Shown one piece after another: positions 33,592-36,541 of a stretch of DNA of 64,000 nt (within the stretch, counting starts at the first letter, position 1; each line of letters begins with the position of its first letter). The notes beneath the pieces are model-generated. The model was not told the DNA's origin. It did not search any database and worked only from the letters and a program-made list of their open reading frames with translations. Source of the DNA: Cellulomonas palmilytica (GTDB lineage: Bacteria > Actinomycetota > Actinomycetes > Actinomycetales > Cellulomonadaceae); contig NZ_CP062221.1 in assembly GCF_021590045.1 (NCBI RefSeq), positions 2,604,001 to 2,668,000 on the forward strand, written 5' to 3'. Position numbers and translations under genes: made by a program.

Positions 33592-33876
33592 ATGCCCACC
33601 TTCGCCGTCCGGTACACGTACGACGAGCGCACCGACGCTCGTGACCACTTCCGCCCGGAGCACCGCGCGTACCTCGCGGGCCTCGCCGACGCGGGCGCGC
33701 TCAAGGGCTCCGGCCCGTGGACCGACGGTGCGCCCGGCGCGCTCCTCGTCCTCGTCGCTGACGACGAGGACCGCGTGCGCGCGATGCTCGCGGACGACCC
33801 GTTCCAGCGCGAGGGGCTCGTCGCGGCCACCGAGGTGCGCGGCTGGGACGTCGTCCTCGGCCCCTGGGCCTCCTGA
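33592..33876 (+). CDS. YciI-family small protein
   Basis: The 94-residue protein has the YciI fold features: FAVRYTYDERTDARDHFRPEHRAYLAGLADAGAL with the conserved His, GPWTDGAPGALLVLVADDED, and the DDPFQREGLV segment with the conserved Asp, related to ferredoxin-like dehydrochlorinases and muconolactone isomerase-like proteins. No substrate is known for most members. Its stop codon lies within the stem of a hairpin shared with the convergent terC gene. Confidence 0.85.
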   Translation: MPTFAVRYTYDERTDARDHFRPEHRAYLAGLADAGALKGSGPWTDGAPGALLVLVADDEDRVRAMLADDPFQREGLVAATEVRGWDVVLGPWAS

Positions 33877-33894
33877 CCCTCGCAGGTCAGGAGG
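33869..33894. terminator. Hairpin spanning both stop codons of convergent genes
   Basis: CCTCCTGACC and GGTCAGGAGG form a perfect ten-pair stem with a six-base loop. One arm contains the YciI stop codon (33874-33876) and the other the terC stop (33887-33889), so it doubles as coding end and bidirectional terminator. Confidence 0.8.
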
Positions 33895-34882
33895 ACGTGA
33901 GCGCCGCCCGGGCGTCGCGCGCGGACTTCATGAGGCTCACGGCCGCCGTCGTCCCGAGGATCACGACGATCGCGACGAGCGACAGCCAGATCGGGATCTC
34001 GGGCGCCCACGACACGGGCTCTCCGCCGTTGATGAACGGCACCTCGTTCTCGTGCAGCGCCTCGAGCACGAGCTTGACGCCGATGAAGCCGAGCAGCACC
34101 GCGAGCCCGTAGCTCAGGTACACCAGCCGCGCGAGCAGGTCGCCCAGCAGGAAGTACAGCTGCCGCAGACCCATGAGCGCGAACAGGTTCGCCATCATGA
34201 TCAGGTACGGCTCGCTCGTCAGGCCGAACAGCGCGGGGATCGAGTCGAACGCGAACAGCAGGTCCGTCGCCCCCAACGCGATCAGCACGATCAGCATCGG
34301 CGTGATGAGCCGCCGGCCGTTCTCGACGACCGTGAGCTTCACGCCGTGGTACTGCGTGGTCGACGGGAACCAGCGCTGCACCAGGCGCAGCAGCAGAGGC
34401 GGGTGGAACTCCTCCGGCTCGTCGTCGGACCCCTCGCGCGCGACCTTCCACGCGGTCCACACCAGGAACGCGCCGAACAGGTAGAACACCCAGCTGAACG
34501 TGCTGACGATCGCCGACCCCAGCAGGATGAACACCGTCCGGAACACGAGCGCGAGCACGATCCCGACGAGCAGCGCGGTCTGCTGGTACTGCCGCGGCAC
34601 CGCGAACCGGCCCATGATCAGCATGAAGACGAACAGGTTGTCGACCGACAGCGAGTACTCGGTGAGCCAGCCCGCGAAGAACTCCCCCGCGTACTGACCG
34701 CCGGACGTCACCAGGACGCCGAGGCCGAACAGGACGGCGAGGGCGACGAAGAAGCCGAGGTGGCGCAGGCACTCCGCGGTGCTCGGCACGTGCGGGCGAC
34801 GTCCCACGACGACCACGTCGACGATCAGCAGCGCGGTGACGACTCCCAGCGAGACCGCCCACACCAGCAACGAGACGTCCAC
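33887..34882 (-). CDS. TerC-family integral membrane protein (second of a tandem pair)
   Basis: This 331-residue protein has about nine hydrophobic helices and the TerC/Alx signatures SLSVDNLFVFMLIMGRFAVP, with acidic Asp and Asn in the membrane, LGATDLLFAFDSIPALFGL with two in-membrane Asp residues, and GLRQLYFLLGDLL. TerC/Alx/MeeF proteins export manganese; earlier names refer to tellurite resistance. Its GTG start lies two bases past the stop of the upstream paralogue, with AGGAG just before, so both are read from one mRNA. Relative to its partner it is clearly diverged, so this is an old duplication. No TerD genes are nearby. Confidence 0.93.
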   Translation of the reverse strand: MDVSLLVWAVSLGVVTALLIVDVVVVGRRPHVPSTAECLRHLGFFVALAVLFGLGVLVTSGGQYAGEFFAGWLTEYSLSVDNLFVFMLIMGRFAVPRQYQQTALLVGIVLALVFRTVFILLGSAIVSTFSWVFYLFGAFLVWTAWKVAREGSDDEPEEFHPPLLLRLVQRWFPSTTQYHGVKLTVVENGRRLITPMLIVLIALGATDLLFAFDSIPALFGLTSEPYLIMMANLFALMGLRQLYFLLGDLLARLVYLSYGLAVLLGFIGVKLVLEALHENEVPFINGGEPVSWAPEIPIWLSLVAIVVILGTTAAVSLMKSARDARAALTSS

Positions 34883-34883
34883 T

Positions 34884-35882
34884 TCACTCCTGTCCGGCGG
34901 CGACGCGACGGTCGCTGCGTGTCTTGACGAGGCTGGCGACGGTCGCGACCGCGAGCGTCCCCAGGATCACGGTGAGCGAGAGCCAGATCGGGATCTCGGG
35001 CGCCCACTCGACGTGCTCGCCGCCGTTGACGAACGGCAGCTCGTTGGTGTGCATCGCGTGCAGCAGGAGCTTCACGCCGATGAAGCCGAGGATGACCGCC
35101 AGGCCCTGCGAGAGGTACACGAGCCGCTCGAGCAGCCCCCCGATGAGGAAGTACAGCTGGCGCAGGCCGAGCAGCGCGAAGGCGTTCGCGGTGAAGACGA
35201 TGTACGGCTCCTCGGTCAGGCCGTAGATCGCGGGGATCGAGTCGAGCGCGAACAGGATGTCCGTCGAGCCGATCGCGACCATCACCAGGAGCATCGGCGT
35301 CAGCAGGCGCTTGCCGTCGACCACGGTCGTGAGGCGGTCGCGGTCGTACTCGGTCGTCGTCGGGAACAGCCGACGCACGAACCGCACGACGACCCCGTCG
35401 CCGCCCTGCTCCTCCTCGGCTGTGTCGTGGTCCTCGCGCGCGAGCTTCACGCCCGTGTACACGAGGAACGCACCGAAGATGTAGAAGACCCACGACCAGC
35501 GTTCGATCGCCGCCGCGCCCAGCAGGATGAAGATCGTCCGCAGCACTAGGGCGATCGCGACCCCGACGAGAAGGACCTTCTGCTGGAACGCCCGCGGGAC
35601 GGCGAACCTCGTCATGATGATGAGGAACACGAACAGGTTGTCGACCGACAGGCTCTTCTCGGTCACGTACCCCGCGAAGTACTCCGCGCCGTGGTCCCAG
35701 CCCCAGAACGCGCCGACAGCCACGCCGAACAGCAGCGCGAGGACGATGTACACCGTCGACCACCAGGCCGACTCGCGGAACGTCGGTTCGTGCGGCGTGC
35801 GCACGTGTGCGAAGAAGTCGAAGACGAGCAGACCGACGACGCCGACCCCGGTGAGCGACCAGACAAGGCTCGAGACATCCAC
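34884..35882 (-). CDS. TerC-family integral membrane protein (first of a tandem pair, behind a Mn riboswitch)
   Basis: The 332-residue paralogue has the same membrane plan and the signatures KSLSVDNLFVFLIIMTRFAVP, IGSTDILFALDSIPAIYGL and GLRQLYFLIGGLLERLVYLSQGLAVILGFIGVKL. The conserved intramembrane Asp/Asn residues are kept. GTG 35882 follows GGAGG by seven bases, and that GGAGG can be hidden in a hairpin (35890-35922) that competes with the riboswitch P1 helix. The regulatory context makes Mn2+ efflux, rather than tellurium resistance, the best functional guess. Confidence 0.94.
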   Translation of the reverse strand: MDVSSLVWSLTGVGVVGLLVFDFFAHVRTPHEPTFRESAWWSTVYIVLALLFGVAVGAFWGWDHGAEYFAGYVTEKSLSVDNLFVFLIIMTRFAVPRAFQQKVLLVGVAIALVLRTIFILLGAAAIERWSWVFYIFGAFLVYTGVKLAREDHDTAEEEQGGDGVVVRFVRRLFPTTTEYDRDRLTTVVDGKRLLTPMLLVMVAIGSTDILFALDSIPAIYGLTEEPYIVFTANAFALLGLRQLYFLIGGLLERLVYLSQGLAVILGFIGVKLLLHAMHTNELPFVNGGEHVEWAPEIPIWLSLTVILGTLAVATVASLVKTRSDRRVAAGQE

Positions 35883-35889
35883 GGACAGA

Positions 35890-35922
35890 CCTCCGGTACG
35901 AGATGTGTGTCAGTACCGAAGG
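35890..35922 (-). promoter_or_regulatory. Shine-Dalgarno-sequestering hairpin of the terC leader
   Basis: CCTTCGGTAC (35922 to 35913) pairs with GTACCGGAGG (35899 to 35890) over ten positions with one wobble. The second arm ends in the GGAGG ribosome-binding site. The first arm begins with CCTTC, which is also the 3' strand of riboswitch P1, so the two structures exclude one another. Confidence 0.7.
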
Positions 35923-36050
35923 TCTCCCCCGCCCGAGCTCCGGGCCGACCGCGCCGGGCTCCGTCGGACGCCGCCGCGGCACGCTGCCGGACTGCGACCG
36001 GCGGCGTCCGTGATGACGACGCGACCGATTGTGGGGTACTCCCCTTCACC
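35913..36050 (-). ncRNA. yybP-ykoY manganese riboswitch
   Basis: The minus strand carries the class hallmarks: a 5' GAAGGGGAGTA (36047 to 36037) and a 3' GGGGGAGACCTTC, so that GAAGG and CCTTC close P1, matching the pattern AAAGGGGAGTAG...AAGACCTTT of known members as I recall them. Between them an 11-pair stem (CGGACGCCGCC with GGCGGCGTCCG, 35965-35975 and 36000-36010) forms a variable peripheral helix. It precedes a terC gene, the commonest target of this class. When Mn2+ is bound, P1 would free the ribosome-binding site and switch expression on. I cannot run a covariance search, so details of internal helices are uncertain. Confidence 0.75.
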
Positions 36051-36057
36051 GCCCGCC

Positions 36058-36063
36058 ATCGTA
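36058..36063 (-). promoter_or_regulatory. -10 element TACGAT for the riboswitch-terC-terC transcript
   Basis: TACGAT on the minus strand would start transcription a few bases before the riboswitch 5' strand. No clear -35 hexamer is visible. Confidence 0.5.
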
Positions 36064-36094
36064 GGCGACGATCGCCCCGGGTGCCGCGCACGGC

Positions 36095-36523
36095 TCACTG
36101 CACGCAGAACTCGTTGCCCTCCGGGTCCTGCATCGTCACCCAGAAGCTGCCGTTCTCCTCCATCTCGTAGAGGCGACGCGCCCCGAGCCGCTCGAGCTCA
36201 CCGACCCGCGCGCGCACGGCGACGGGACGCTGGTCGCGCGGGAGGTCCGGGCGGACGGTCACGTCGAGGTGCACGCGGTTCTTGCCCGCCTTCTCCTCGG
36301 GGACCTTCTGGAACCACAGGCGCGGGCCGGCGCCGTCGGGGTCGACGACCGCGTACGCCGTGTCCCGCTGGTCGAGCGGGACACCCATCGCGTCGAGGGC
36401 CTCGTCCCACGTCGCGTACGGCGGCGGCGGGGAGTCCTCGACGTACCCGAGCACCTCGGCCCAGAAGGCGCCGAGCGTGGGCGGGCTCGCGGCGTCGAAC
36501 GTGACCTGGATCCGTGCTGCCAT
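36095..36523 (-). CDS. VOC-superfamily protein (glyoxalase/bleomycin-resistance fold)
   Basis: The 142-residue protein has the paired beta-alpha-beta-beta-beta layout of the VOC fold: ARIQVTFDAASPPTLGAFWAEVLGYVED, LWFQKVPEEKAGKNRVHLDVTV (metal-ligand His position), and FWVTMQDPEGNEFCVQ at the C-terminus (Glu position), typical of the large actinobacterial group annotated glyoxalase-like. Substrate unknown. ATG 36523 is chosen because GAGGAG is correctly spaced; a GTG two codons earlier overlaps that site. It follows uvrB after 18 bases and may be read with it. Confidence 0.82.
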   Translation of the reverse strand: MAARIQVTFDAASPPTLGAFWAEVLGYVEDSPPPPYATWDEALDAMGVPLDQRDTAYAVVDPDGAGPRLWFQKVPEEKAGKNRVHLDVTVRPDLPRDQRPVAVRARVGELERLGARRLYEMEENGSFWVTMQDPEGNEFCVQ

Positions 36524-36541
36524 GCTCACTCCTCGTGTCGG

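Follow-up and report, generated by a model that had tools for sequence, protein, structure and literature searches.

The leader in front of two adjacent terC genes of Cellulomonas palmilytica is a real member of the yybP-ykoY kind of riboswitch, and it is probable that it acts as a Mn2+-responsive translational-ON switch of terC1 and, through the operon, of terC2. A first-pass annotation of this DNA had proposed such a switch and was right in outline. The evidence consists of the parts of the element and their conservation, two competing helices with covariation, homology to the alx leader of Escherichia coli and the gene context.

The window (the whole stretch of DNA analysed, 64,000 nt) carries on its minus strand, in this order, the hexamer TACGAT, the aptamer, a hairpin covering a Shine-Dalgarno sequence (SD), terC1 and terC2. 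The riboswitch leader (36052-35880, minus) comprises the aptamer and the hairpin over the terC1 SD. Both genes encode proteins of the TerC/Alx family: terC1 (34884..35882, minus; 332 aa; PF03741, E 4.6e-51) runs from a GTG start at 35882 to a TGA stop at 34886-34884, and terC2 (33887..34882, minus; 331 aa; PF03741, E 2.3e-49) starts with the GTG from 34882, one base past the terC1 stop. Both proteins exceed the cut-off (246.4 bits) of the NCBIfam model TIGR03718 (R_switched_Alx), with 380.9 bits for TerC1 and 348.1 bits for TerC2, and the sequence search for PDB relatives of TerC1 gave none at E<=0.001. On the same strand, 5' of the leader, lies a gene for a Glyoxalase_6 protein (36095-36529), which shows no evident link to the manganese unit.

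A search with TerC1 gave 80 named loci and 30 further loci. Within 330 nt upstream of the match, GGGGAGTA together with GA[AG]ACC was found in 48 of the 80 named loci, from genera including Cellulomonas, Actinotalea, Flavimobilis, Clavibacter, Microbacterium, Rhodococcus and Prescottella; the 32 named loci without the motifs, split by eye, are 25 of Nocardia, six of Rhodococcus and one of Salinisphaera. When the motif of the L3 loop was also required, 81 leaders (66 distinct) were obtained, with 37 representatives at <=88% identity, and the alignment A2 holds 33 leaders, four long ones (L001, L002, L066 and L077) having been left out. The covariance model R1 was built from these 33 actinomycete leaders, so that neither the C. 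palmilytica leader nor any E. coli sequence was in its training. The 146 R1 matches that were aligned comprise 80 from 79 sources and 66 from 75 sources; the nine sources without an R1 match are nine of the 32 motif-less loci, and 144 leaders remained after removing the duplicates L146 and L186.

The covariance-model search that had been proposed as a check came out differently with the two models used. RF00080, the Rfam 15 model (gathering cut-off 45 bits), gave no match to the C. palmilytica leader at the gathering score or even at E<=10 (341-base slice), none in the whole genome at E<=0.001 and none at the gathering score in 20 relatives. This miss is uninformative, since RF00080 also fails on the E. 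coli alx leader (L113; none at E<=10) and scores E. coli mntP at 41.6 bits, under its cut-off, while a congener leader (L114) matches it over the full length (31.7 bits, E 1.4e-5). R1, on the other hand, matches the predicted aptamer (35918..36047, minus) with 64.6 bits over 35916-36052 (E 2.4e-13) and E. coli alx with 50.4 bits (E 7.1e-10), although mntP was not found by it. R1 thus joins the leader to the experimentally supported alx element, neither of which was in the training set, and homology within the class is established in this way; because the RF00080 cut-off is not reached, the element is filed under the riboswitch class and not as an RF00080 hit.

The same disparity is seen at larger scale. 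In the Actinomycetes sample (E<=0.001), R1 found matches in 264 of 394 genomes and 93 of 138 genera, and RF00080 in six of 394 genomes, none of them over the cut-off; the two samples were taken as the same, since the genome handles agree among the matches listed. R1 matched 46 of 198 genomes in the phylum sample, and RF00080 was found in three of the 14 control genomes of the class scan. Strict filters were applied in these large scans, so the counts may be low. RF00080 therefore covers actinomycetes poorly, and a lineage-specific model recovers this type of riboswitch. As a separate observation, five genomes (G305, G051, G403, G399 and G465) hold four or five R1 matches each, which suggests larger manganese regulons in such actinomycetes.

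The predicted Mn2+ aptamer consists of P1.1, L1, P1.2, P3.1, L3, P3.2 and P4, with no P2. The first-pass annotation had described a typical pair of motifs, GGGGAGTA (36044-36037) and AGACCTTC (35925-35918), and both are present on the minus strand, but the helix is properly P1.1, in which GAAGG (36043..36047, minus), an SD mimic, pairs and covaries with CCTTC (35922-35918), while GGAGTA and GAGA belong to L1. The 5' side of L1, GGAGTA (36037..36042, minus), forms an internal loop opposite GAGA (35926-35923), so that the L1 motif of the class, GGGGAGUA opposite GAGA or GAGAC and flanked by P1.1 and P1.2, is present (36044-36037 and 35926-35921). All 146 aligned R1 matches have GGAGTA. The metal-sensing loop L3, TCATCAC (36010..36016, minus), is a seven-nucleotide bulge between P3.1 and P3.2, and its third base is A in 145 of the 146 aligned matches, the exception (L193) looking misaligned. 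According to the accessible part of the crystal-structure paper (PMC6754395), the loops are UCA41AUUC in L. lactis and ACA48UACU in X. oryzae; the GGAGTA side of L1 and L3 fit that description, and by-eye alignment to the published loops places the predicted Mn2+ discriminator adenosine at 36014, corresponding to A41 and A48, respectively. The P3.2 arm (35957..36009, minus), delimited from the parsed leaders, is 53 nt long; the arm measures 52-56 nt in L001-L003, the nearest named relatives, and 13-33 nt, mostly 20 nt, in the other parsed leaders. The P4 hairpin, GCCCG/CGGGC (35931..35945, minus), is supported by the sequence and the R1 alignment and is helix 5 of the covariation test.

A P2 hairpin and a four-way junction are seen in crystal structures of the class, and they are not universal in it. 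Neither was found here: the linker at the P2 site is at most 10 nt in 145 of the 146 matches, as fitted to the P2-less R1, and the exception (L119) has a 12-nt hairpin-like insert at that site. Since alx is fitted by R1 without P2, and since a Streptococcus yybP-ykoY member with a three-way junction is described in a review (PMC9495176, in the part accessible), P2 was not treated as defining, and its absence is a variant within the class and not an exclusion from it.

The architecture is well supported by comparison. The leader folds with z = -4.09 relative to shuffles, and RNAalifold on the 33 leaders of A2 returns P1.1, P1.2, P3.1, P3.2 and P4, and again no P2. A structure drawn by eye for this alignment has 90.0% of its cells paired (98.5% for P1.1 and 97.7% for P1.2) and changes on both sides in 24 of its 35 pairs; sliding the structure by 1-3 columns lowers the paired cells to at most 51.2%. 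None of the 500 shuffles of A2 reached any of the five structure measures, although such shuffles do not remove relatedness.

The expression platform is an anti-SD hairpin (35887..35925, minus), supported by the sequence, the minimum free energy (MFE) fold, and start-anchored conservation and covariation. Its arms, AGACCTTCGGTAC (35925-35913) and GTACCGGAGGTCT (35899-35887), form 13 contiguous pairs, one of them G-U, rather than the ten counted in the first-pass annotation. Within the hairpin lies the terC1 SD, GGAGG (35890..35894, minus), 7 nt before the GTG at 35882; the claim that the hairpin covers this SD holds, but it is not the only ribosome-binding site, since terC2 has its own SD, AGGAG (34891-34887, minus). 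The switching strand CCTTC (35918..35922, minus) is both the 3' strand of P1.1 and the anti-SD of the hairpin, and therefore the P1 helix and the SD-sequestering helix are mutually exclusive, just as had been claimed. Both competing helices are conserved; P1 covaries clearly and the hairpin more weakly.

Across the 144 leaders, P1 is paired in 820 of 864 cells. The hairpin was assessed in two ways. In the unanchored test, the arm that pairs best within a stretch of about 75 nt was taken, and all seven hairpin pairs were found in 119 of the 144 leaders versus 8.1% of shuffles, with 1239 of 1390 cells paired (139 leaders with at least six core pairs; the other five were left out). With these arms, the five shared nucleotides pair fully with both partners in 110 of the 144 leaders and incompletely in 34. 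When downstream regions were swapped between leaders, 62.7% still gave 7/7 pairs, because most arms are alike. The arm chosen for alx in this manner is a small local hairpin and not the one at the alx SD. Since the unanchored choice can miss the SD, the test was repeated using the TerC frame to set the start codon (129 leaders, 28 nt before the start). All seven core pairs were then present in 109 of the 129 leaders versus 1.9% of shuffles, and at least six pairs together with an SD-like core within the arm in 117, the remaining 12 leaders not having this combination. This comparative evidence argues for the translational-ON layout put forward in the first-pass annotation.

For covariation, partners were permuted among one leader per rare switching 7-mer (anchored, n=10), a procedure that does not remove relatedness: P1 scored 48 of 50 against a permuted mean of 40.3, a value reached in none of 5000 permutations, and the hairpin 62 of 70 against a mean of 55.3, reached in 8 of 5000. 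The unanchored version (n=15, alx included) gave 95 against 85.6 for the hairpin (0/5000). Rare arms pair nearly as well with common-type regions (mean 5.96 pairs; unanchored, n=15) as with their own regions (6.33). Given this small gap and the pairing that persists with swapped regions, a large share of the hairpin signal reflects conservation and not covariation. The covariation expected of the hairpin is thus present to a modest degree in a strongly conserved helix, and that of P1 is clear. The strands themselves illustrate this: the switching strand CCTCC occurs with GGAGG both as P1 5' strand and as SD arm, CCTTC with GAAGG in P1 and GGAGG or GAAGG as SD arm, CCTTG with CAAGG in P1 and CGAGG or CAAGG as SD arm, and CCTCA with CGAGG in P1 and TGAGG as SD arm. 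These sets are the commonest or single cases, and other combinations occur.

With regard to folding energies, the MFE structure contains the best downstream hairpin arm in 121 of the 144 leaders and P1 in only one (unanchored arm), and forcing P1 costs a median of 9.35 kcal/mol over the 144 leaders and 10.4 kcal/mol in the C. palmilytica leader, metal docking being ignored in these values. So stable a hairpin could serve as a brake that is always on, or as an RNA thermometer, beside an unrelated or decayed aptamer. The aptamer core is, however, invariant and covarying, and changes in the switching strand are followed by the 5' strand of P1 as well as by the SD strand, so we consider an idle aptamer very improbable indeed. 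For the riboswitch reading, the energies make simple equilibrium switching doubtful: as they favour the hairpin by about 10 kcal/mol, the default state would be OFF and switching is probably co-transcriptional, with Mn2+ acting before the SD strand emerges.

Mn2+ as the ligand and translational activation are described for the class in the accessible parts of PMC11647493 and PMC9603457, and the latter also describes activation of alx by Mn. For the C. palmilytica leader, we infer the Mn2+ ligand, the direction of the switch, its co-transcriptional (kinetic) operation and the co-control of terC2. At low Mn2+, CCUUC (35922-35918) would pair with the SD in the 13-bp hairpin and ribosomes could not load. 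At high Mn2+, L1 and L3 would dock around the ion and keep P1.1 closed; the SD-mimicking GAAGG (36047-36043) would then occupy CCUUC, the anti-SD hairpin would be blocked and terC1 would be translated, with terC2 following through coupling and its own SD.

Joint control of the terC pair, also claimed in the first-pass annotation, could plausibly arise from the operon arrangement and from translational coupling across the single base between the terC1 stop and the terC2 start, but since terC2 has an SD of its own, this part of the claim is only partly supported. R1 finds one significant site in the C. palmilytica genome, the next match having E 0.77, and terC2 thus has no detected switch of its own. 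A second TerC gene lies directly downstream in 24 of the 48 motif-bearing named loci, and all 24 fall in L001-L026, which by label are Cellulomonas and close relatives.

Upstream of the aptamer, TACGAT (36058..36063, minus) is a probable promoter -10 element, judged from the sequence and from a comparative excess of TANNNT. This pattern occurs 8-26 nt 5' of GGGGAGTA in 96 of the 144 leaders versus six of 144 in the stretch just upstream, and its modal distance of 19 nt is also the distance in the C. palmilytica leader. The hexamer pointed out in the first-pass annotation is therefore present and comparatively backed, but a sigma-70 scan, which also requires a -35 element, reported no promoter at this site. 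No intrinsic terminator-like site was found in 33700-36200, a result in line with translational control, but one that would also suit a different use of the same aptamer, namely control mainly at the transcript level, where the untranslated leader of the OFF state is exposed to Rho and transcription ends; Rho-dependent control is described at the E. coli mntP riboswitch (PMC11647493, accessible part). The conserved element, on the other hand, is a hairpin covering the SD beside the start codon, which points first to translation, and Rho could act as a consequence of translational control. We consider Rho as the main route unlikely, and translational control of terC1 is retained as the preferred reading.

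Regarding the genes served by these leaders, a TerC-like frame lies within 190 nt in 129 of the 144 leaders, a share that is biased because most of the second 66 matches came through TerC. In a set of 68 distinct leaders chosen from the R1 matches (the 30 best by score and 40 hand-picked over families, distinct only), TerC is downstream in 62. The other 15 of the 144 are alx (locus cut), six GDT1-like, two Na/Ca-exchanger-like, one VIT1-like and two GreA/GreB-like cases, and three leaders whose downstream protein has no family; the assignments come from Pfam for a single member of each of the GDT1, exchanger, Gre and no-family groups and from inspection by eye for the others. The R1-type leaders before GDT1 (UPF0016) divalent-cation antiporters (L117, L118, L120, L170, L195 and L196; Pfam for L195, the others by eye) mostly have CTTTC as the switching strand. 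Two R1 matches precede a GreA/GreB-type elongation factor, L182 (aptamer 1601-1710, minus; Pfam GreA_GreB) and L163 (aptamer 301-400, plus; by eye), and such a factor is an unexpected target for a Mn2+ switch. In L160, L161 and L190, all of one genus (g33, family f19), the aptamers precede a protein of about 280-290 aa, for which no Pfam or NCBIfam match was found (L160 only) and which is possibly an uncharacterised manganese-related protein.

The identity of the signal deserves separate consideration, since pH or a divalent ion other than Mn2+ could be part of what is sensed. In E. coli, R1 finds alx and not mntP, and alkaline pH is a further signal to which alx responds (PMC9603457, accessible part); in addition, a Streptococcus yybP-ykoY aptamer has a higher affinity for Ca2+ than for Mn2+, according to the accessible part of the review (PMC9495176). 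An element that senses alkaline pH or another divalent ion such as Ca2+ at least as much as Mn2+ would fit these reports. The discriminator adenosine, however, is kept in L3 in all aligned matches apart from the one mentioned above, and the partner genes belong mostly to metal-transport families, for which reason we regard such sensing as quite improbable and keep Mn2+ as the presumed ligand.

Taken more broadly, the results may describe a large P2-less, three-way-junction subclass of Mn2+ riboswitches in Actinomycetota, nearly missed by the current Rfam model. In such a subclass, the 5' strand of P1 would copy the SD in evolving form, the SD mimic, anti-SD and SD would coevolve, and in some lineages control would take in not only metal exporters but also a GreA/GreB-type transcript-cleavage factor and a family-less protein; in our judgement, the case for this whole statement is evenly balanced. 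For Cellulomonas and its relatives, the locus offers a concrete and testable model of how Mn2+ might control TerC proteins. A riboswitch that a lineage model recovers from roughly two thirds of the actinomycete genomes sampled can, as seen here, escape the covariance model of a general library; with an improved seed alignment, many candidate manganese regulons that now lack annotation would come to light, some of their genes having no known link to manganese regulation. The concerted change of the three strands would offer a neat case from nature of a translational switch that drifts in sequence and yet keeps its ability to switch. Two wider points emerge: how incompletely the standard model covers actinomycetes, and how P1 and the SD evolve through a strand that they share.

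Among open-licence papers, we found none on a riboswitch together with TerC and Cellulomonas, and, in the parts of them accessible, no account of an actinomycete expression platform of this design. Among the nearest known systems is E. coli alx, which shares L1 GGAGTA, has TCATTAC in L3 and no P2 as fitted by R1, and controls a gene of the TerC/Alx family; its CCTTGC can pair, by eye, with GTAAGG overlapping the AAGGA before the alx start. It differs from the C. palmilytica leader in being AU-richer, with a larger P4 insertion, a different switching strand, one gene instead of two and its reported pH response. E. coli mntP resembles the leader in its translational activation by Mn2+ (PMC11647493 and PMC9603457, accessible parts), its L1 GGGGAGUA and its L3 GUCAACAUACU, but the Rfam alignment gives it a P2 hairpin, and it serves a different exporter and, as given above, scores with RF00080 and not with R1. 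The Streptococcus mgtA Mn/Ca riboswitch is alike in having a yybP-ykoY aptamer with a three-way junction (PMC9495176, accessible part), but controls a transporter ATPase. Another near system is cg2157 (terC) of Corynebacterium glutamicum, a TerC gene from an actinobacterium whose leader carries an RF00080 annotation and whose transcript 5' end was observed (PMC3890552, accessible part). A comparative survey places yybP-ykoY with the motifs found in >75% of the taxonomic groups that it compared, a set that takes in Corynebacteriaceae and Mycobacteriaceae (PMC3766115, accessible part). From these two sources, actinobacterial members of the class were already known, and the C. palmilytica leader takes its place beside them.
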